Of a DNA stretch of 64,000 bases, positions 22,943 to 32,126 are shown piece by piece. The stretch spans positions 3,286,001-3,350,000 of the forward strand of contig NZ_CP107880.1 in NCBI RefSeq assembly GCF_036013745.1, in the 5' to 3' direction. Position numbers and translations under genes: made by a program. Position 1 is the first letter of the stretch. Every line of letters begins with the position of its first letter. This stretch comes from Streptomyces sp. NBC_00483 (GTDB taxonomy: Bacteria; Actinomycetota; Actinomycetes; Streptomycetales; Streptomycetaceae). Under the pieces are notes generated by a model that saw nothing but the letters and a program-made list of their open reading frames with translations, was not told the origin of the DNA and searched no databases.

Positions 22943-23119
22943 ATTTAAAGTCTCGCGGAAAGCCTTGCCGAGGCTTTACGTGGACGGGGCACGGGTTCGG
23001 TGGGGGCCTGGCGCGGGATCGGGATGGGGCCTGGCGCGGGGGCGGCACGCGGTGCCACCATGGAGGCGATCCGGGGACGCCGTCAGGGCGCCTCGAGACG
23101 ACATGAAGGAGCCGTTGCG

Positions 23120-24052
23120 ATGACGCAACCCACAGAGCTTTCGGCTGCCCAGAACACCCAGAACATCCAGCAGGCCCAGCAGGCCCAGCAGACATCGAAC
23201 GACCAGAGCGCGCAGAACGCCCAGAAGTCCACCGTGCTGTACGGGGGCAAGGGCTCGCGGCGGGTCACGGTCCGGGACATCGGCCTCGCCAAGGAGCGGG
23301 GCGAGAAGTGGCCCATGCTCACCGCGTACGACGCGATGACGGCGTCGGTCTTCGACGAGGCAGGCATCCCCGTGATGCTGGTCGGCGATTCGGCGGGCAA
23401 CTGTCACCTCGGGTACGAGACGACGGTGCCGGTCACCCTCGACCAGATGGTGCTGCTCTCGGCGGCGGTGGTACGCGGCACGTCCCGCGCGCTGATCGTC
23501 GGTGACCTGCCCTTCGGGTCCTACCAGGAAGGGCCGACGCAGGCGCTGCGCTCGGCGATGCGGCTGGTGAAGGAGGCCGGGGTCGGGGCGGTGAAGCTGG
23601 AGGGCGGCGAGCGCTCGCACGACCAGATCAAGCTGCTCGTCGACGCCGGGATCCCGGTCATGGCGCACATCGGACTGACCCCGCAGTCGGTCAACACGCA
23701 GGGCTACCGGGTCCAGGGGCGCGGCGAGGAGGCGGCGCAGCAGTTGCTGCGCGATGCCAAGGCCGTCCAGGACGCGGGGGCGTTCGCGGTCGTCCTGGAG
23801 CTGGTTCCGGCGGAGCTCGCGGCCGAGGTGACGCGCACCCTGCACATCCCGACCGTCGGCATCGGGGCCGGGGCCGGTACGGACGCGCAGGTCCTGGTCT
23901 GGACGGACGCGCTCGGCCTCACCGGCGGGAAGATGCCGCGCTTCGTGAAGCAGTACGCGGATCTGCGGGGCGTGATGTCCGACGCGGCGAAGGCGTTTGC
24001 GGAGGACGTCATCGGCGGAACGTTCCCTCAGGAGGAGCACTCCGTCCACTGA
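23120..24052 (+). CDS. panB: 3-methyl-2-oxobutanoate hydroxymethyltransferase
   Basis: A 310-residue enzyme of pantothenate (vitamin B5/CoA) synthesis; it transfers a hydroxymethyl group from methylenetetrahydrofolate to alpha-ketoisovalerate in the cytoplasm. Diagnostic stretches are [72 protein letters not shown] and [15 protein letters not shown]. The first 45 residues are an extra Gln/Asn-rich tail ([17 protein letters not shown]), absent from typical PanB. The ATG has AAGGAG 8 nt upstream. No panC or panD is adjacent; a hairpin follows the stop. Confidence 0.96.
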
Positions 24053-24570: not shown

Positions 24571-24621
24571 GGGGCTCCGCCCCGGACCCCGCGAGTCTCG
24601 TCCCAAAGCGGGGCTTGATTT
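24571..24621 (+). repeat. Dispersed repeat, type A (GGGGCTCCGCCCCGGACCCC...CTTGATTT)
   Basis: This ~50-bp element begins GGGGCTCCGCCCCGGACCCC, whose first 13 bases are a small hairpin, and ends GGGGCTTGATTT. Copies in this window lie at 30393-30442 (inside the SARP gene), 33879, 35899, 41173, 44059 and 52250-52345. Here it is followed by a type B copy at 24669, the same A-then-B order as in the SARP gene. Confidence 0.85.
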
Positions 24622-24647
24622 GCGCCGCCCTTCCGGGACGTGAGCCT

Positions 24648-25203
24648 CACGGGCTGCCGCCACCCCACCTCGGGCAATCTGCCGCCCAGGGCGGCAGGGT
24701 GGGCAAGGCGGCCCCCGGTGCCGCGCACCCATCACGACAGGCGCCGACCCCGGCCCCGGACGGGCCGAAGCCCCCGGAGGGGGCGGGCGGCGGGAGATGA
24801 GCGGATGCCGACGCAGCCCGAGAAAAGACCATGCCGCACCGCCCCTCCGGGACGTCCGCCTCACAGGATGCCGCCACCCCACCTCGGGCAACTCGATTTG
24901 CCCCACCCCACCGGAACGTCCGCCTCACGGGCTGCCGCCACCCCACCTCGGGCAATCTGCCGCCCAGGGCGGCAGGGTGGGCAAGGCGGCCCCCGGCACC
25001 GCACACCCATCACGACAGGCGCCGACCCCGGCCCCGGACGGGCCGAAGCCCCCGGAGGGGGCGGGCGGCGGGAGATGAGCGGATGCCGACGCAGCCCGAG
25101 AAAAGACCATGCCGCACCGCCCCTCCGGGACGTCCGCCTCACAGGACGCCGCCACCCCACCTCGGGCAACTCGATTTGCCCCACCCCTCCGGAACCTCGA
25201 CCC
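24648..25203. repeat. 278-bp direct tandem duplication
   Basis: Copy 1 (24648-24925) and copy 2 (24926 to about 25203) are almost identical; for example GCGCCGACCCCGGCC occurs at 24741 and again at 25019. Each copy holds one type B hairpin, a GAAGCCCCCGGAGGGGGCGG hairpin and a GAGATGAGCG block. A third, more diverged type B unit follows at about 25225. No gene with normal codon bias is visible on either strand; long open frames there are a by-product of GC content. Confidence 0.88.
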
Positions 25204-25360
25204 CACAGGGCGCCGCCACCCCAGCTCGGGCAATCCACCGCCCAGGGCGGCACCGTGGGCAAGGCGGCCCCCGGTGCCGCGCACCCATGACCGAAGGCGC
25301 CGACCCCGGCACCGCCCCCGCCCCGGACGGGCCGAAGCCCCCGGAGGGGGCGGGCGGCGG

Positions 25361-25745
25361 GAGATGAGCGAGGACCGGCACAGCCGGAGGAGGGACGGTG
25401 CCGCGTACTCGTACCGCAAACGCCCACCCCGACAATGGCCCGCTCCCAAGCGCCGCCCACCGGAAACGGGAGATGAGCGAGGGCCGGCACAGCCGGAGGA
25501 GGGGCGGTGCCGCGTACTCGTACCGCGGACGCCTGACCCGGCATTGGCCCGCGCCCAAGCGCCGCCCACCGGAAATGGGAGATGAGCGGGGACCGGCGCA
25601 GCCAGAGAAGGAGCGGTGCCGCGCACTAGTGCCGCAAACGCCCACCCCGACAATGGCCCGAGCCCAAGCGCCGCCCACCGGAAACGGGAGATGGGCGGGG
25701 ACCGGCGCAGCCAGAGAAGGAGCGGTGCCGCCTGCCAGTGCCGTA
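25361..25745. repeat. 109-bp tandem repeat array, about 3.5 copies
   Basis: The block starting GAGATGAGCG recurs at 25361, 25470, 25579 and 25688 (GAGATGGGCG), exactly 109 bp apart each time. Internal bases such as GACCGGCACAGCC and the CGCCCACCGGAAA end are conserved with scattered substitutions. Since 109 is not a multiple of 3, the copies cannot encode one repeated peptide. The array runs up to 110 bp before the ABC-transporter start codon. Confidence 0.92.
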
Positions 25746-25804
25746 GGCGTCCACCACCAACCCGCCCACCCCCTGTCGGCACCGTATCGGCGGCAGCCAC
25801 CCGT

Positions 25805-25854
25805 TGTCGGTCGGGTGTCGGTGGGTTGTCGGTGGGGGCTGACACCTTGAGGGC
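25805..25854 (+). promoter_or_regulatory. Probable SARP-activated leaderless promoter of the ABC exporter
   Basis: TGTCGGT occurs at 25805-25811, 25816-25822 and 25827-25833: three perfect heptamers at 11-bp spacing. Exactly 8 bp later is ACACCT (25842-25847), a plausible -10, and 7 nt later the ATG at 25855. Heptamers at 11-bp steps ending 8 bp before a -10 are the established SARP (OmpR-type BTAD) activator layout. A further pair, TGTCGGC (25774) and TATCGGC (25785), is also 11 bp apart. The SARP encoded at 27761-31159 is the obvious candidate. Confidence 0.65.
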
Positions 25855-26877
25855 ATGACGCGAATCGACAAGAACTCCGTGAGCGACCGACCGGTCGCCG
25901 TATCGGTGAGGGGACTGGTCAAGCACTACGGCGCGACCAAGGCCCTGGACGGCGTGGACCTGGACGTACACGAGGGCACCGTCATGGGTGTCCTCGGTCC
26001 GAACGGCGCCGGCAAGACCACCCTCGTCCGCTGCCTCTCCACCCTCATCACCCCCGACGCCGGCACGGCGATCGTGGCGGGCTACGACGCGGTGCGCCAG
26101 CCCCGCCAGCTGCGCCGCGTGATCGGCCTCACCGGCCAGTACGCCTCGGTCGACGAGAAGATCTCCGGCCGGGAGAACCTGTACATGATCGGGCGGCTGC
26201 TCGACCTGTCCAGGAAGGACGCCAAGGCCCGCGCCGACGCCCTGCTGGAGCGCTTCTCGCTCACGGACGCCGCCGGCCGCCCCGCGAAGACGTACTCCGG
26301 CGGTATGCGCCGCCGCCTCGACCTCGCGGCGTCGATGATCGGCCGCCCGCACGTCCTCTACCTGGACGAGCCGACGACCGGCCTCGACCCCCGTACGCGT
26401 AACGAGGTGTGGGAAGAGGTCCAGAGCATGGTGCGCGACGGCGTCACCGTCCTGCTCACCACCCAGTACATGGAGGAGGCCGAGCAGCTGGCCTCCGAGC
26501 TCACCGTCGTCGACCACGGCAAGGTCATCGCGCGGGGCGGCATCGACGAGCTCAAGGCGAAGGTCGGCGGCCGCACCCTGCGGATCCGCCCGGCCGACGA
26601 GCTGGAGCTGCGCCCGCTGGCGCACGCGATAGACGACATGGGGCTCACGGGCCTCGCCACCACCACCGTGGACACCCACTCCGGGTCCGTCCTGGTCCCC
26701 GTACTCAGCGACAAGCAGCTCACCGCCGTGGTCGGCGCGGTCACCGCGCGAGGCATCACGATCGGCTCCATCACCACCGAACTGCCCAGCCTGGACGAGG
26801 TGTTCCTGTCCATCACCGGCCACAAGGCCTCCGCCCCGGAGGACGCCAGGCCCGAACTCGAGGAGGCCGCCGTATGA
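25855..26877 (+). CDS. ABC exporter ATP-binding protein, DrrA (daunorubicin-resistance) type
   Basis: A 340-residue ATPase. Walker A is GPNGAGKTT (about residue 50), the signature is YSGGMRRRLDLA, Walker B is VLYLDEPTTGLDP, and the switch is TTQYMEEAEQL. The C-terminal extension LDEVFLSITGHKA is characteristic of DrrA-type subunits. With the overlapping permease it would form a two-plus-two exporter for a drug or lipid-like compound. GAGGG lies only 1 nt before the ATG, too close to serve as a ribosome-binding site, which supports leaderless expression from the promoter above. Confidence 0.93.
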   Translation: MTRIDKNSVSDRPVAVSVRGLVKHYGATKALDGVDLDVHEGTVMGVLGPNGAGKTTLVRCLSTLITPDAGTAIVAGYDAVRQPRQLRRVIGLTGQYASVDEKISGRENLYMIGRLLDLSRKDAKARADALLERFSLTDAAGRPAKTYSGGMRRRLDLAASMIGRPHVLYLDEPTTGLDPRTRNEVWEEVQSMVRDGVTVLLTTQYMEEAEQLASELTVVDHGKVIARGGIDELKAKVGGRTLRIRPADELELRPLAHAIDDMGLTGLATTTVDTHSGSVLVPVLSDKQLTAVVGAVTARGITIGSITTELPSLDEVFLSITGHKASAPEDARPELEEAAV

Positions 26878-27713
26878 GTGCCACCACCCTTGCCGCTCCC
26901 ACCGCGGCCCCCACGATCACCATCGAGGCCGACCCCAAGATCGGCCTGAGTGGCCATCTGCGTCACACGGGCGCGCTGATCCGCCGCAATCTGCTGTGGA
27001 TCCGCAACGACCCGGAGTCGATGATGGACGCGGTCCTGATGCCGATCGTCTTCACCCTCCTGTTCGTGTACGTCTTCGGCGGCTCGATCGGCTCCGCGAT
27101 GGGCGGCGGCCAGGACGCGTACGTGCAGTACGTGATCCCCGGCATGGTCGCGATGATGAGCATGAACATCGCGCAGGGCGTCGGCACCGGCTTCAACGAG
27201 GACTTCCAGAAGGGCATCATGGACCGCTTCCGGTCCCTGCCCATCGGCCGCGGATCGGTGCTCATCGCCAAGGTGGTCGTGGAGATGCTGCGGCTCCTCG
27301 TCGCCACCACGGTCCTGATGATCGTCGCGCTGCTCGTCGGATTCGACATCACCAGCTGGGCCGGTCTGTTCGGTGCCATCGGCCTGACCGCGCTGTTCGG
27401 CTCCGCCCTCATGTGGATCTTCCTGACGCTCGGCGTGGTCATGAAGAGCGCGCAGGCCGTGCAGGCCATGGGCTTCCTCGTGATGATGCCGCTGCAGTTC
27501 GGCTCGTCGATCTTCGCGCCGACCAAGTCGATGCCGGGCTGGCTGCAGGCCTTCACCGACTGGAACCCGATCTCGTCCCTCGCGGACGCCTGCCGCGGAA
27601 TGATGGTCGGCGGCCCGGTCGCCCACGACCTGTGGGTGACCCTCGGGTGGACGGCAGTGCTGACGGCCGTCATGGCGCCGATCGCGATCCGTAAGTTCAC
27701 CACCAAGAGCTGA
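26874..27713 (+). CDS. ABC-2-type exporter permease, DrrB type
   Basis: A 279-residue permease with six hydrophobic segments; its ATG overlaps the stop of the ATPase gene (ATGA), implying translational coupling. The stretch LIRRNLLWIRNDPESMMDAV before helix 1, then FVYVFGGSIGSAM and IPGMVAMMSMNIAQGVGTGF, then MDRFRSLPIGRGSVL, match the ABC-2 permease domain of DrrB proteins. It forms the membrane channel of the exporter. It is convergent with the SARP gene 48 bp downstream; no clear terminator is visible in that gap. Confidence 0.92.
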   Translation: MSATTLAAPTAAPTITIEADPKIGLSGHLRHTGALIRRNLLWIRNDPESMMDAVLMPIVFTLLFVYVFGGSIGSAMGGGQDAYVQYVIPGMVAMMSMNIAQGVGTGFNEDFQKGIMDRFRSLPIGRGSVLIAKVVVEMLRLLVATTVLMIVALLVGFDITSWAGLFGAIGLTALFGSALMWIFLTLGVVMKSAQAVQAMGFLVMMPLQFGSSIFAPTKSMPGWLQAFTDWNPISSLADACRGMMVGGPVAHDLWVTLGWTAVLTAVMAPIAIRKFTTKS

Positions 27714-27760: not shown

Positions 27761-30700
27761 TCAGTCGTCCAACAGGGCGGTGGCCTCCTCCAAGGAGAGG
27801 CCGCCGCCCTCTGCGTATGCCCGCTCGTACGTCGCCTCGTCGAGCAGCGCGCGGGTCTCCGCCGCGGCGGCCGCGCGCCAATTTCGTTCGAGTACGGCCG
27901 GCTTGTGGCCCTCGGGCATCGCCGCGTCGGCCGCGCCCATGAGCCGCGCGGCGGCCACCGCGTCGCCCTCCCCGCCCCGCTGGACGATGGCCCGGGCCGC
28001 CGTGCACAGATGCAGCCCCACCAGTTGCGGCATGACGAGCGCGGCCAGCGGGTCCCGCGCGATGTCGAGGCAGCGCCGTACGTTCGCGACGGCGTCCTCG
28101 GTGTGCCCGTCGACGGTGTCGATCATCGCCTCCATGCCGATGGTCATGCCGTGGAAGAACCCGATCTGCACCACCCTGAACTCACTGCGCAGCAAAGCGA
28201 GTTGCTCACGGGCCTCGACGGTGCGGCCGGTGAACGAGAGATGGGAGACGAGGAAGAGGCGGGCGGCGGGCCTGGACTCGTTGGTGTGCCGGCGCCCGTC
28301 CTCCAGCGACTCCCACAGCAGCGCCTCGCCCCCCTCGATGTTCCCCTGCTCGATGAGCGTCTGGCCGAGCCTGACCTGGAGGATCGCGGCCTGGGAGTGG
28401 GCGCCCATGCTGTGCGCGACCTCACGGGCGCGCGTGTAGTCGGCGGCGGAGCCCTCGAAGTCGCCGAGCTTCTCGCGCGCCTCACCGCGCGCGGACAGCG
28501 CCTCGGCCGTCCCCCACTCGTCGCCGAGCCGACTGAACAGCTCCAGCGACTCGTCGGCGTACGCGAGCCCTTCCTCGGCCCAGTCGCTGCGGTTGGCGAA
28601 CACGTTGGCCCGCATCTGGAGGACGAGCGCCAGCTCCCAGTCGTAGCCGAGCTCGCGGCAGGTCCGCGTGGACACCGCGGCGAGCTCCTGAAGCCGGCCC
28701 ATGTCGCCGGTCAACAGGACGGCGAAGTACCAGATGTTGCCGGGCGGGCGGCAGGCCTGCGGGAGGTCGGCGCGGTAGGTCTCGAGGACGGCGCGCAGCC
28801 GGTCCTGGCCCACCTCCGTCTGCCAGTGGTCCATCTCCATGTCCATGTAGCCGAGCCGGCACAGATGGACCTGGCGGCGCGCCTCTTCGAAGAGCTCGCC
28901 GGTCAGCGGGGGCGGGGTGTCGGTGCAGCGATCGAAGATCGGCGGGGCGGGGCTGCCGGGCCCGGCGAACGGGTCGGGGCCGAGCGCCGCGGCCTCCCCC
29001 GTCCACGTACGGGCGTCGACGCGCAGGTCCCGCATCTGCCAGAACCAGGACAGGGACAGGACGAGGCTGAACGCCTCCTGCTCGTCACGCGCCGCGACCG
29101 CGTGCCGCAGGGCCGTGCGCAGATTCTCGTAGTCCCGCTCGATCCGGGCGATGGCGGCGCGCTGGCCGCTGCCGCGGAGCAACGGGTCGGTGGTGCGGGC
29201 GAGTTCGCGGTAGTACGTGAGGTGGGCGCGCTCGGCGGCGGGGCGCTCCCCGGACTCGTCGAGGCGGTCGTCCGCGTACTCGGAGACGGTTTCGAGGAGG
29301 CGGTAGCGCATGTCGCCGCTGCCCTCCTCCGGGGCGGCGACCACGAGCGACTTGTCGACGAGGGAGGCCAGGGCGTCGAGCGCGTCCGGACCGCAGACCG
29401 ACTCGGCCGCGGACAGGTCGCAGCCGCCGCTGAACACGGAGAGGCGGGCGAGGGTGGCGCGCTCCGGCTCGTCGAGCAGGTCCCACGACCAGTCGACGAC
29501 CGCGCGGAGCGTCTGCTGGCGGGGCAGGGCGGTGCGGGCGCCGGAGGTGAGGAGACGAAATCGGTCGTCGAGGCGGTCGGCGATCTGGCGGGGCGTGAGC
29601 ATGCGCAGGCGCGCCGCGGCGAGTTCGATGGCGAGCGGGAGGCCGTCGAGGCGGCGGCAGATCTCGCCCACCGCGTCCGGGGCCTCGTCCACGGTGAAGC
29701 CGGGGCGCACGGCGGCGGCGCGCTCGCCGAACAGCCGCAGCGCGTACGGCTCCGGGAGCGGTTCCACCGGGTACAACAACTCGCCCGGTACGCCGAGGGG
29801 TTCGCGGCTCGTCGCCAGGATCGTGACACCGGGGCAGTGGGCGAGGAGGTCGTCGGCGAGGGCGGCGGCCGCGTCGATGACGTGCTCGCAGTTGTCGAGG
29901 ATCAGCAGGAGCCGGCGGTCCTCGCAGTGCTCCACGAGCCGCACGAGGGGGTCGTCGCCCTGCCGCTCCCCCGCGACGCGAAGCTCTTCGGCGCCGGCGC
30001 CGCGCAGCACGGTCTCCCGGGCCCCGAGCGCACTGACGACCGCCTCCGGCACGGCGGCCGGATCACTGACCGGCGCCAACTCCGCGAGCCACACACCGTC
30101 CGGGGCGGTCCCGACCCCCTCCGCGACCTCCTGCGAAAGCCGCGTCTTGCCCGCGCCGCCGGGCCCGAGCAGCGTGACCAGCCGCACGCGGCCCAGATCG
30201 GCACGGATGGCATCGATGTCGCCCGTGCGCCCGACGAACGAGGTGAGCCGGGCGCGGAGGTTACCCGGGGCGGGGGCCGAAGTGGGTGCGGCCTGCGCCG
30301 GGGGCCGCCTTGCCCACCCTGCCGCCCCAGGCGGCAGATTGCCCAAGGCGGCGGACTCGTCCGCACCGTCCAGCCCCTGTGGCGGGTGGGCCAAATCCAG
30401 CCCCTGCGGCGATTGAGCAGCGGGGTCCGGGGCGGAGCCCCGTGGCGTGAGCAACTCCTCGTGCAACGCTCGGAGTTCCGGCCCGGGATCCGCCCCCAAC
30501 GTGTCCGCCAACCCCCGCCGCACCCCCTCGTAAGCGGCCAGCGCCTCCGCCCCCCGCCCCGCGGAGCGCAACGCCCGCAGCCGCAGGACCTGCAACGGTT
30601 CGTCCAACGGATGCGCGTCACAGAGCGAGGTCAGCTCCGGCAGCACCTCATCCGCCCGGCCAAGCGCCAGATACGCGGCAAGCCGCGTGCGCCGGGCGTC

Positions 30701-31159
30701 GAGGTGCCGGGTGTCCCACCGCGTGGTCTCGGTCGACCGGTCCGGGAGATCGGCGAGGGCGGGCCCCCGCCACAACGCGAGCGCGTCGTCGAGAAGGTCG
30801 AGCGCCTTCTCCGGGGCACCGTCCGCGAGGGCCCGCGCCCCGTCGGCGGTCAGCCGCTCGAAGCGGAACAGGTCGACGTCGTCCGCGGCGGCGGCGAGCC
30901 GGTAGCCACCCTCGGACGAGGTGATCACCTCCGCCCCCAGAGCCCTGCGCAGCCGCCCGATCAACGCCTGCAGCGCACCCGCCGCGTCCGCGGGCGGCTC
31001 CTCGCCCCACACCTCGTCGACGAGAAACGCGACAGGTACGGCGCGGCCGGGCCGCAGCGCGAGCACCGTGAGCAGGGCACGCAGCCGCGCCCCGCCGACC
31101 GGGACGGCCGTGCCGTCGTCGCGGAATGCCTGGGTGGTGCCGAGGATGCGGTAGCGCAC
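27761..31159 (-). CDS. Large SARP-family regulator (BTAD, NB-ARC ATPase, TPR)
   Basis: A 1132-residue AfsR-like regulator. Residues 1-95 are an OmpR-type DNA-binding domain (MRYRILGTTQAFRDDG, LLTVLALRPGRAVPVAFLVD, LIGRLRRALGAEVI); about 100-240 is the bacterial transcriptional activator domain. From about 300 comes an NB-ARC-type ATPase: Walker A LLGPGGAGKTRL near 331, Walker B LLLILDNCEH near 418, and ATSREPLGVPGE. The C-terminal half holds helical TPR-like repeats. Such proteins activate antibiotic or exporter genes by binding heptamer repeats; the nearest match is upstream of the convergent ABC operon. Residues about 240-285 are encoded by dispersed repeats. It starts with GTG behind a GGGAGA site. 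Confidence 0.93.
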   Translation of the reverse strand: MRYRILGTTQAFRDDGTAVPVGGARLRALLTVLALRPGRAVPVAFLVDEVWGEEPPADAAGALQALIGRLRRALGAEVITSSEGGYRLAAAADDVDLFRFERLTADGARALADGAPEKALDLLDDALALWRGPALADLPDRSTETTRWDTRHLDARRTRLAAYLALGRADEVLPELTSLCDAHPLDEPLQVLRLRALRSAGRGAEALAAYEGVRRGLADTLGADPGPELRALHEELLTPRGSAPDPAAQSPQGLDLAHPPQGLDGADESAALGNLPPGAAGWARRPPAQAAPTSAPAPGNLRARLTSFVGRTGDIDAIRADLGRVRLVTLLGPGGAGKTRLSQEVAEGVGTAPDGVWLAELAPVSDPAAVPEAVVSALGARETVLRGAGAEELRVAGERQGDDPLVRLVEHCEDRRLLLILDNCEHVIDAAAALADDLLAHCPGVTILATSREPLGVPGELLYPVEPLPEPYALRLFGERAAAVRPGFTVDEAPDAVGEICRRLDGLPLAIELAAARLRMLTPRQIADRLDDRFRLLTSGARTALPRQQTLRAVVDWSWDLLDEPERATLARLSVFSGGCDLSAAESVCGPDALDALASLVDKSLVVAAPEEGSGDMRYRLLETVSEYADDRLDESGERPAAERAHLTYYRELARTTDPLLRGSGQRAAIARIERDYENLRTALRHAVAARDEQEAFSLVLSLSWFWQMRDLRVDARTWTGEAAALGPDPFAGPGSPAPPIFDRCTDTPPPLTGELFEEARRQVHLCRLGYMDMEMDHWQTEVGQDRLRAVLETYRADLPQACRPPGNIWYFAVLLTGDMGRLQELAAVSTRTCRELGYDWELALVLQMRANVFANRSDWAEEGLAYADESLELFSRLGDEWGTAEALSARGEAREKLGDFEGSAADYTRAREVAHSMGAHSQAAILQVRLGQTLIEQGNIEGGEALLWESLEDGRRHTNESRPAARLFLVSHLSFTGRTVEAREQLALLRSEFRVVQIGFFHGMTIGMEAMIDTVDGHTEDAVANVRRCLDIARDPLAALVMPQLVGLHLCTAARAIVQRGGEGDAVAAARLMGAADAAMPEGHKPAVLERNWRAAAAAETRALLDEATYERAYAEGGGLSLEEATALLDD
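30304..30442 (-). repeat. Type A plus type B dispersed repeats inside the SARP coding sequence
   Basis: On the minus strand a type A unit (30442-30393, GGGGCTCCGCCCCGGACCCC start) is followed by a type B hairpin (30353-30304). They are translated in frame as GSAPDPAAQSPQGLDLAHPP and AALGNLPPGAAGWARRPPA. The same A-then-B order occurs in the gene-free region at 24571-24712. The segment lies between the activator domain and the ATPase, where a linker tolerates insertion. Confidence 0.85.
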
Positions 31160-31325
31160 GGACCTATTCTCCCTGCTGCCGTTCGACCACCGCGCCTGGT
31201 ACCTGCCTCGACCTCGTCATGCCCCTACCTTGTCCGGAACTCCCGCAGTACCGCGACACGTTTCCCGCATACAGCGAGTACGTTCGGTGAGCCAGCCGAC
31301 CAGTCTGCCCCGGGAGTTCCACCCC

Positions 31326-32126
31326 ATGACCACCGCCACCGCACGCCGCGGCGACAACAGGATCAGCCCCGTCTTCCTCGGCATCGCCGCGATCACGGCG
31401 GTGGCCGGCTGGGCGGTGTGGACGGACTTCGCGTCCCAGCCGGGCTTCGCGGTGTTCCTGTTCGTGACGGGCGCCTGGGTCGTCTCGCTCTGTCTGCACG
31501 AGTACGCGCACGCGCGCACGGCGCTGCACAGCGGCGACATCTCGATCGGCGCGAAGGGCTATCTGACCCTGAACCCGCTCAAGTACACCCACGCGCTGCT
31601 CAGCATCGTGCTCCCGGTCATCTTCGTGATCATGGGCGGGATCGGACTGCCCGGCGGCGCCGTGTTCATCGAGCGGGGGCGGATCCGGGGGCGCTGGCGG
31701 CACAGCCTGATCTCGGCGGCGGGACCGCTGACGAACGTGCTGTTCGCGATCGTGTGCACGGCGCCGTTCTGGCTGGACGCGCTGGACGGGGTGCCGGACA
31801 CCTTCCGTTACGCGCTCGGGTTCCTCGCCCTGCTCCAGGTCACCGCGGCGATCCTGAACTTCCTGCCGGTGCCGGGCCTGGACGGGTACGGGGTGATCGA
31901 GCCGTGGCTGTCGCAGAAGGTCCGGCGGCAGGTGGAGCCGTTCGCGCCGTTCGGTCTGCTCGCCGTGTTCGCCGTGCTGTGGATCCCGGAGATCAACCAG
32001 TGGTTCTTCGACGCGGTCGACTGGGTCCTTGCCGCGCTCGGCGTGCACGAGTGGGACACGTACTGGGGCCTGCAGTTCTACCGGTTCTGGCAGGGCACCC
32101 CGGAGATCCCGACGTTCACGCAGTAG
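31326..32126 (+). CDS. M50-like (site-2-protease-type) membrane metalloprotease
   Basis: A 266-residue membrane protein with about six helices. The zinc motif HEYAH (HExxH) is in VSLCLHEYAHARTAL near residue 60, and the second site NFLPVPGLDGYGV (N-x-x-P-x-P-x-x-D-G pattern) lies near residue 180. This is the S2P fold with the active site in the membrane; substrates are probably membrane-bound regulators, but no anti-sigma factor is nearby. The ATG at 31326 is preferred over an upstream in-frame start at 31230, which would add a basic non-membrane tail. It is divergent from the SARP gene. Confidence 0.85.
   Translation: MTTATARRGDNRISPVFLGIAAITAVAGWAVWTDFASQPGFAVFLFVTGAWVVSLCLHEYAHARTALHSGDISIGAKGYLTLNPLKYTHALLSIVLPVIFVIMGGIGLPGGAVFIERGRIRGRWRHSLISAAGPLTNVLFAIVCTAPFWLDALDGVPDTFRYALGFLALLQVTAAILNFLPVPGLDGYGVIEPWLSQKVRRQVEPFAPFGLLAVFAVLWIPEINQWFFDAVDWVLAALGVHEWDTYWGLQFYRFWQGTPEIPTFTQ

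Follow-up and report, generated by a model that had tools for sequence, protein, structure and literature searches.

A conserved array of heptamers in an 11 bp register before a drrAB-like exporter operon, the probable operator of a large SARP in Streptomyces

The DNA analysed here is a stretch of 64,000 nt from Streptomyces sp. NBC_00483 (contig NZ_CP107880.1, positions 3,286,001 to 3,350,000; hereafter the window). It carries an operon for a drrAB-like ABC exporter that is preceded by three TGTCGGT heptamers and followed by a convergent gene for a large regulator of the SARP family. The features concerned are as follows, with positions counted from the first base of the window.

25774..25791, + strand: accessory heptamer pair TGTCGGC/TATCGGC, 31 bp 5' of the first two main heptamers
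25805..25811, + strand: distal main heptamer TGTCGGT (sequence, Tandem Repeats Finder)
25816..25822, + strand: middle heptamer TGTCGGT (sequence)
25827..25833, + strand: proximal heptamer TGTCGGT, 28 nt before the drrA ATG
25840..25848, + strand: TGn element (25840–25842) and weak −10 hexamer CACCTT (25843–25848)
25855..26877, + strand: drrA-like ABC ATP-binding subunit, ATG start (TIGR01188, DrrA1-3_C)
26874..27713, + strand: drrB-like ABC-2 permease, ATGA overlap with drrA (PF01061)
27761..31159, − strand: large SARP with Trans_reg_C winged helix-turn-helix (HTH), BTAD, NTPase and TPR regions (Pfam), convergent with drrAB

The original prediction of three perfect heptamers was borne out by inspection of the sequence, as was the layout downstream, in which 8 bp (25834–25841) separate the proximal heptamer from ACACCT (25842–25847), with a further 7 nt to the ATG at 25855. 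Tandem Repeats Finder (TRF) reported an 11 bp tandem array of 3.0 copies at 25805–25837. The proposed −10 element ACACCT is present as stated, but CACCTT, one base further 3', is better supported by conservation, the last T of this hexamer being kept in 97 % of 186 relatives. The 3' repeat lies 8 bp from ACACCT and 9 bp from CACCTT. Direct repeats at steps of 11 or 22 bp, a 3' repeat about 8 bp from the −10 element and a weak −35 region are the marks of a SARP-activated promoter, and all are found here. The extra pair TGTCGGC (25774) and TATCGGC (25785) also exists and likewise has an 11 bp step. Apart from the main array and the accessory pair, neither strand of the window has TGT[CA][GA]G[CT] pairs spaced by 11 or 22 bp, even when each pair is permitted one mismatch overall. 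The exact pair TGTCGGT-N4-TGTCGGT occurred in the window only at the main array (two overlapping pairs); at two mismatches, shuffled sequences averaged 0.47 matches, with two reached in 7 of 100. Across the 10.2 Mb genome, three exact copies of TGTMRGY were present at one site and a single mismatch added one more, which precedes a short-chain dehydrogenase gene; the reversed control gave none.

The exporter operon and the full-length convergent SARP gene beyond it were as originally described, judged by Pfam matches and gene layout. The drrA product scored 385.5 bits against the DrrA subfamily model TIGR01188 (cut-off 312.45). The permease is assigned to ABC-2 only, with scores under the cut-offs for DrrB (TIGR01247, 60.1 vs 223.05 bits) and drrC (55.3 vs 165.65 bits). 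The top-scoring model for the exporter was that of the oxytetracycline exporter Otr(C) (NF000106), although its cut-off was not reached (420.7 vs 750 bits). The regulator has the composition of a large-type SARP (OmpR-type winged HTH, BTAD, NTPase and TPR), with PF00486 and PF03704 above cut-off, AAA_22 barely above it, and AAA_16 and TPR_12 below. Solved structures matched by this protein comprised four sequences, the AfsR chains 8hvr/8k60/8jke and EmbR 2fez, and its residues 1–239 align with the AfsR chains. By its score against the AfsR model NF053617 (184.7 bits, cut-off 1430), the protein is AfsR-like, but not AfsR.

To follow the array through the genus, drrA relatives were sought at E≤1e-120 in 150 Streptomyces genomes drawn from the genus and were present in 138; a further 63 loci from named organisms were located via the permease. 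The 213 loci with a drrA match, some of which represent the same place twice, yielded 190 distinct promoters after identical ones had been merged and those with less than 140 nt upstream removed. With one mismatch permitted per heptamer, at least two heptamers at 11 bp steps were found in 186 of the 190 and at least three in 176. The proximal heptamer lay 29 nt from the start codon in 139 loci and 28 nt in 45, with single cases of 27 and 30 nt. Of the four promoters with fewer than two, one (L221) has two mismatches in the middle heptamer and three (L098, L121 and L123) have no heptamers. Two in-phase heptamers occurred in none of 3800 mononucleotide-shuffled sequences, a comparison with a mild bias because the start codon was picked for best fit among in-frame candidates in real loci and was fixed in the shuffles.

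Information content was 1.3–2.0 bits at heptamer positions 1–6 and 0.5–1.2 bits at the C/T seventh position, while spacer positions held 0.2–0.9 bits, the sole exception being the G after the middle heptamer (1.25 bits). Among 186 relatives, T, G, T and GG of the distal heptamer stood at 93–96 % and its C at 84 %, and the first six positions of the middle heptamer at 90–100 %. The proximal heptamer was near-invariant except at position 5 (G/A, 80/19 %) and position 7 (T/C, 76/23 %). The heptamer variant of Streptacidiphilus is TGTCAGC. The TG of the TGn element was kept in 167 of 187 relatives, in which the −10 hexamers were CACCTT (26), CACCGT (25), TCCCAT (20), CACTGT (14) and others. The relatedness of the compared genomes inflates such counts, which tells against the operator reading to that extent; since the promoter rows are related by descent, the contrast between heptamers and spacers is the stronger argument. 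The same contrast bears on the proposal that the array is a slippage product without a regulatory role. The sequence just upstream is rich in tandem repeats, with TRF arrays at 24617–25370 (278 bp, 2.7 copies) and 25358–25731 (109 bp, 3.4 copies) that take up most of the interval separating a panB-like gene (23000–24052) from the drrA promoter. However, the heptamers are kept genus-wide at a constant spacing to the start codon while most spacer bases vary, and the same box precedes unrelated genes, so that slippage alone is given almost no credence.

The exact three-heptamer pattern was found at drrA in 107 of the 150 genomes (121 of 133 matches, with 12 elsewhere) and was absent from all 11 genomes whose drrAB-SARP locus is missing or not intact. 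The reversed control gave 16 matches in seven genomes, ten of them in two genomes (G010 and G045). Heptamer pairs in the 190 promoters also peaked at a lag of 31 (48 pairs; 12 at lag 30 and 24 at lag 32) and of 42 (44 pairs; 13 at lag 41 and 17 at lag 43), about three and four helix turns, with approximately none in shuffles. These peaks echo the accessory pair of the window, for which a role as an accessory site is plausible. The drrA promoter of one genome (L203, G034) holds 11 consecutive heptamers at 11 bp steps, with one mismatch permitted in each, and a divergent heptamer pair lies on the opposite strand beside the drrA promoter in four genomes (L338 in G019, L339 in G005, G100 and G149).

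Linkage of the array to the SARP gene was assessed in 166 distinct loci for which 3 kb or more of sequence 3' of drrA was available, 47 of the 213 having been dropped (39 for short downstream sequence, seven as duplicates and one for want of upstream sequence). For a SARP gene to be counted, a tblastn match to the window's protein had to score 200 bits or more within the stretch examined. The gene was present in 159 of 166 loci, and in all 159 the best match was convergent with drrA and downstream of it. Heptamers missing from orthologous operons that have the SARP would speak against a circuit between the two; at least two heptamers at 11 bp were present in 157 of the 159. The two loci lacking the array by this rule were L221, described above, and L079, whose contig begins inside the promoter. 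The three loci devoid of heptamers (L098, L121 and L123) also lack the SARP. Of the 12 genomes of the genus with no drrA match at 1e-120, one (G079) does carry the locus, its drrA match being divided into two pieces. Another (G057, L284) has a SARP match in two pieces, a partial permease, no drrA match and no heptamer pair, and is apparently a decaying copy of the drrAB-SARP locus. The other ten have more distant SARP matches or none.

A search of the 150 genomes for two heptamers followed by a NANNNT −10 element returned 140 matches, compared with six for the reversed control; none of the 140 was in the 11 genomes whose locus is missing or not intact. Eighty-two were at drrA starts, four were divergent on the opposite strand beside drrA and 54 were elsewhere. 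Genes at these 54 sites were assigned by homology and Pfam; 52 sites were inspected, and two (both in G101) were left out and counted as unassigned. Flavin monooxygenase genes follow 23 of the 54 sites (16 TetX/AbsH3-like, four rifampin-monooxygenase-like and three of a tetracycline-destructase-like group) and short-chain dehydrogenase genes follow nine, two of these clearly broken and a third (G081) with an internal stop. The others comprise two siderophore-interacting flavoproteins, two DUF4440-like proteins (under the Pfam cut-off), two MFS proteins, and one each of an alpha/beta hydrolase, an AraC-type regulator and an S9 peptidase. None of seven boxed proteins scanned reached the cut-off of an NCBIfam resistance model, and the boxed enzymes are thus described as family resemblances. 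For example, the boxed enzyme L322 scored 128.2 bits against Tet(X) NF033111 (cut-off 750); its best solved structure by sequence was AbsH3 (6n04), with TetX chains ranking lower, and it is best called a TetX/AbsH3-like flavin monooxygenase. TetX/AbsH3-like monooxygenases at 1e-90 were absent from all 11 locus-less genomes, but also from three of nine others searched.

Two further candidates lie in the genome of the window, the dehydrogenase gene at C1:528 kb and, at C1:9.54 Mb, a TetX/AbsH3-like monooxygenase gene preceded by a degenerate array. A leaderless start had been considered for the dehydrogenase in this genome, with an ATG 28 nt from the proximal heptamer, and was dropped. Most orthologues have a likely start further 3', behind a ribosome-binding-site-like stretch, which is present here too (by eye); leaderless transcription is consequently claimed for drrA only. 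In all five flavin monooxygenase leaders that were folded (L272, L278, L329, L336 and L337), the prediction places a GC-rich hairpin 3' of the presumed transcription start, at −18 to −25 kcal/mol for 60 nt, values without a shuffle control. In four TetX/AbsH3-like monooxygenase genes that lack the box (L362–L365, one of which is this genome's second copy), short palindromes can be seen by eye close to the start, which suggests TetR-type operators and TetR-type control instead.

The consensus of RecA-NDp/PafBC promoters is TTGTCRGTG-N8-TANNNT, of which a single copy suffices, and their targets are repair genes. The arrangement TTGTCGGTG-N8-CACCTT at the proximal heptamer gave rise to the first idea pursued, that of a PafBC-type DNA-damage promoter read with the housekeeping RNA polymerase, the upstream copies being incidental or secondary. 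The proximal unit fits this consensus save for the first −10 base (CACCTT for TANNNT), relatives mostly have TTGTCRG(T/C)G as their proximal copy, and the loosened pattern TTGTCRGTG-N8-NANNNT has 74 matches in this genome compared with three when reversed. The idea was set back by the finding that all three copies are conserved at drrA, where the PafBC motif needs one, and by the absence of the repeat elsewhere: among 30 of the 74 sites, a heptamer 11 bp upstream was found at drrA only, the other 29 having two to six mismatches. Moreover, the leading T of the −10 element is missing at drrA and in about three-quarters of relatives, and the boxed genes mostly encode flavin monooxygenases, a dehydrogenase and transporters, with no repair gene among those assigned. 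A pure PafBC promoter is judged improbable on these grounds. The same low standing is given to a dual input, in which PafBC would use the proximal repeat upon DNA damage and a SARP the entire array. The proximal unit tolerates less variation than the other two (preceding T 69 %, following G 91 %), which fits an overlaid motif, but the extra constraint is equally expected from closer contact with RNA polymerase. Sigma adaptation is described for both PafBC and SARP activators (PMC11804915 and PMC10936776). The 74 PafBC/RecA-NDp-like sites, some of which are just 5' of possible starts, form a candidate Streptomyces DNA-damage regulon in their own right.

The geometry at drrA can be compared with that of the AfsR-activated afsS promoter. 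As described in PMC10936776, the afs box consists of two 11 bp repeats with eight contacted bases each, from −40 to −19, the afsS promoter has a suboptimal −10 element (CACTGT) and a poor −35 element, and direct repeats at 11 or 22 bp steps define SARP-type promoters. Aligning drrA with the afsS register via the conserved C places +1 on the first base of the ATG (25855), and a leaderless drrA transcript starting at this base is predicted. By the same analogy, the proximal heptamer and its preceding T would match the eight contacted base pairs of an AfsR-type direct repeat at −29 to −22. In the proposed mechanism, SARP protomers would sit side by side on the 11 bp repeats, on one face of the DNA, with the two proximal repeats as the counterpart of the afs box and additional heptamers adding cooperative occupancy. 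Through sigma adaptation, the SARP would bring HrdB RNA polymerase to the weak TGn-CACCTT promoter, so that transcription would begin at the ATG, and its NTPase-TPR part would gate activation in response to a signal. Side-by-side binding and sigma adaptation would together explain both the fixed spacing and the weak promoter. SARP binding and activation, the leaderless start, an inducer and a substrate are inferred. Across 149 copies of the SARP (duplicates included), the recognition helix ALQALVGRLRR hardly varies, and Arg69, which aligns with R92 of AfsR, is found in all 149.

Given the array, its geometry and conservation, the adjacency of the SARP gene and the recurrence of the box before other genes, the three heptamers very probably form an operator for a SARP-type activator, with the large SARP adjoining drrAB as the likeliest candidate. 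Several observations weigh against this reading. Four loci have the array without an adjoining SARP (L229 in G145, L106, L069 and L108), with clean triplets in two SARP-less loci (L106 and G145); the link between array and SARP is strong, therefore, but not absolute. No regulator was recognised among four frames 3' of drrB in G145 (L286; one MFS protein and three without a Pfam match) or among three frames scanned downstream in L106 (one APH-type phosphotransferase and two without a Pfam match). In the window, the pair scan found no such box at the SARP promoter and thus no sign of autoregulation through it. (An M50-family peptidase frame, 31230–32126 on the + strand, lies 5' of the SARP gene and is divergent from it.) The base contact of AfsR at T−38 aligns with G at drrA, and Ala65 (149 of 149 copies) and Arg25 (148 of 149) stand where AfsR has T88 and Q48; these changes mean that specificity is not readable from AfsR. 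At 13 of the 54 other sites, including the two in G101, the gene was unassigned or unrelated, and about six of all two-heptamer matches are expected by chance.

The recognition helix is also the same or nearly the same in the paralogues L269, L255, L257, L268 and L270, of which L269 is encoded in this genome (C1:5282785-5286021) with 65 % identity in the DNA-binding part, and the activator could consequently be a paralogue or several SARPs. In keeping with this alternative, L106 has three heptamers without an adjoining SARP, and its genome (G151) has the paralogue L257. Against it, the SARP that stays next to the operon in nearly all loci is the adjoining one, and the 11 locus-less genomes contain no three-heptamer arrays despite other large-SARP matches in some (above 470 bits in G047 and G105; several weaker ones in G120 and G121). 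The latter test is weak because most arrays belong to drrA itself. A SARP-type box served mainly by a paralogue, or by several SARPs, is considered unlikely, although less so than either of the PafBC proposals.

With the adjoining SARP as activator, the same box before flavin monooxygenases and the short-chain dehydrogenase would define an export-plus-modification (detoxification) regulon, and a genus-wide SARP-controlled regulon of this kind is the likeliest reading of the sequence comparisons. The chances are about even that the large SARP detects toxic natural products through its NTPase-TPR sensor and induces lineage-specific modifying enzymes along with export. A SARP family known for antibiotic production would then serve protection, and the position of the box before drug-modifying enzyme types suggests a detoxification switch rather than an antibiotic-making one. 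The operator code would link the large SARP of most Streptomyces to drrAB and to scattered flavin monooxygenases. If this is correct, the code makes it easy to catalogue the genes with which a Streptomyces responds intrinsically to drugs, supplies a reporter promoter that could be used at once to identify the signal of the NTPase-TPR SARP, and provides a natural operator series of two to 11 copies for relating SARP occupancy to output. No paper on this genus-wide locus, or on a SARP regulon of exporter and modifying enzymes, was found among the matches listed in a search that covered few subscription journals. SCO2256–SCO2259 may be the counterparts of this locus in Streptomyces coelicolor; among the matches listed, these names turned up in a metabolic-modelling paper that mentions SCO2256 once.

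A SARP of Streptomyces peucetius, DnrI, reportedly acts on drrAB and drrC, according to the title of a 2017 paper in the reference list of PMC10972967, and operators of three heptamers are already known for the SARP PimR. DnrI sits in a biosynthetic cluster, whereas the drrAB-SARP pair described here spans most of the genus and has no cluster assigned. PafBC promoters resemble the proximal unit and its spacing but differ in their single copy, TANNNT −10 element and repair targets. PapR2 has a closely similar core, GTCRG, within its motif GTCAGSS; unlike the system here, it activates antibiotic gene clusters, and the motif is described without a fixed triplet in the accessible part of PMC7040171. 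The main operator of PimR at pimM in Streptomyces natalensis likewise consists of three heptamers with 4 bp spacers, accompanied by a secondary operator of two (PMC5930380), but the consensus is CGGCAAG, the operator lies off the −35 box, the target is a pathway regulator and PimR is a SARP-LAL protein. AfsR/afsS of Streptomyces coelicolor shares the large SARP with NTPase and TPR regions, the 11 bp repeats with eight contacted bases, the weak −10 element (CACTGT) and the same register to the start site (PMC10936776). It differs in having two repeats rather than at least three and the −35 element TTCAGC in place of the heptamer TGTCGGT, and the target here is an exporter operon.
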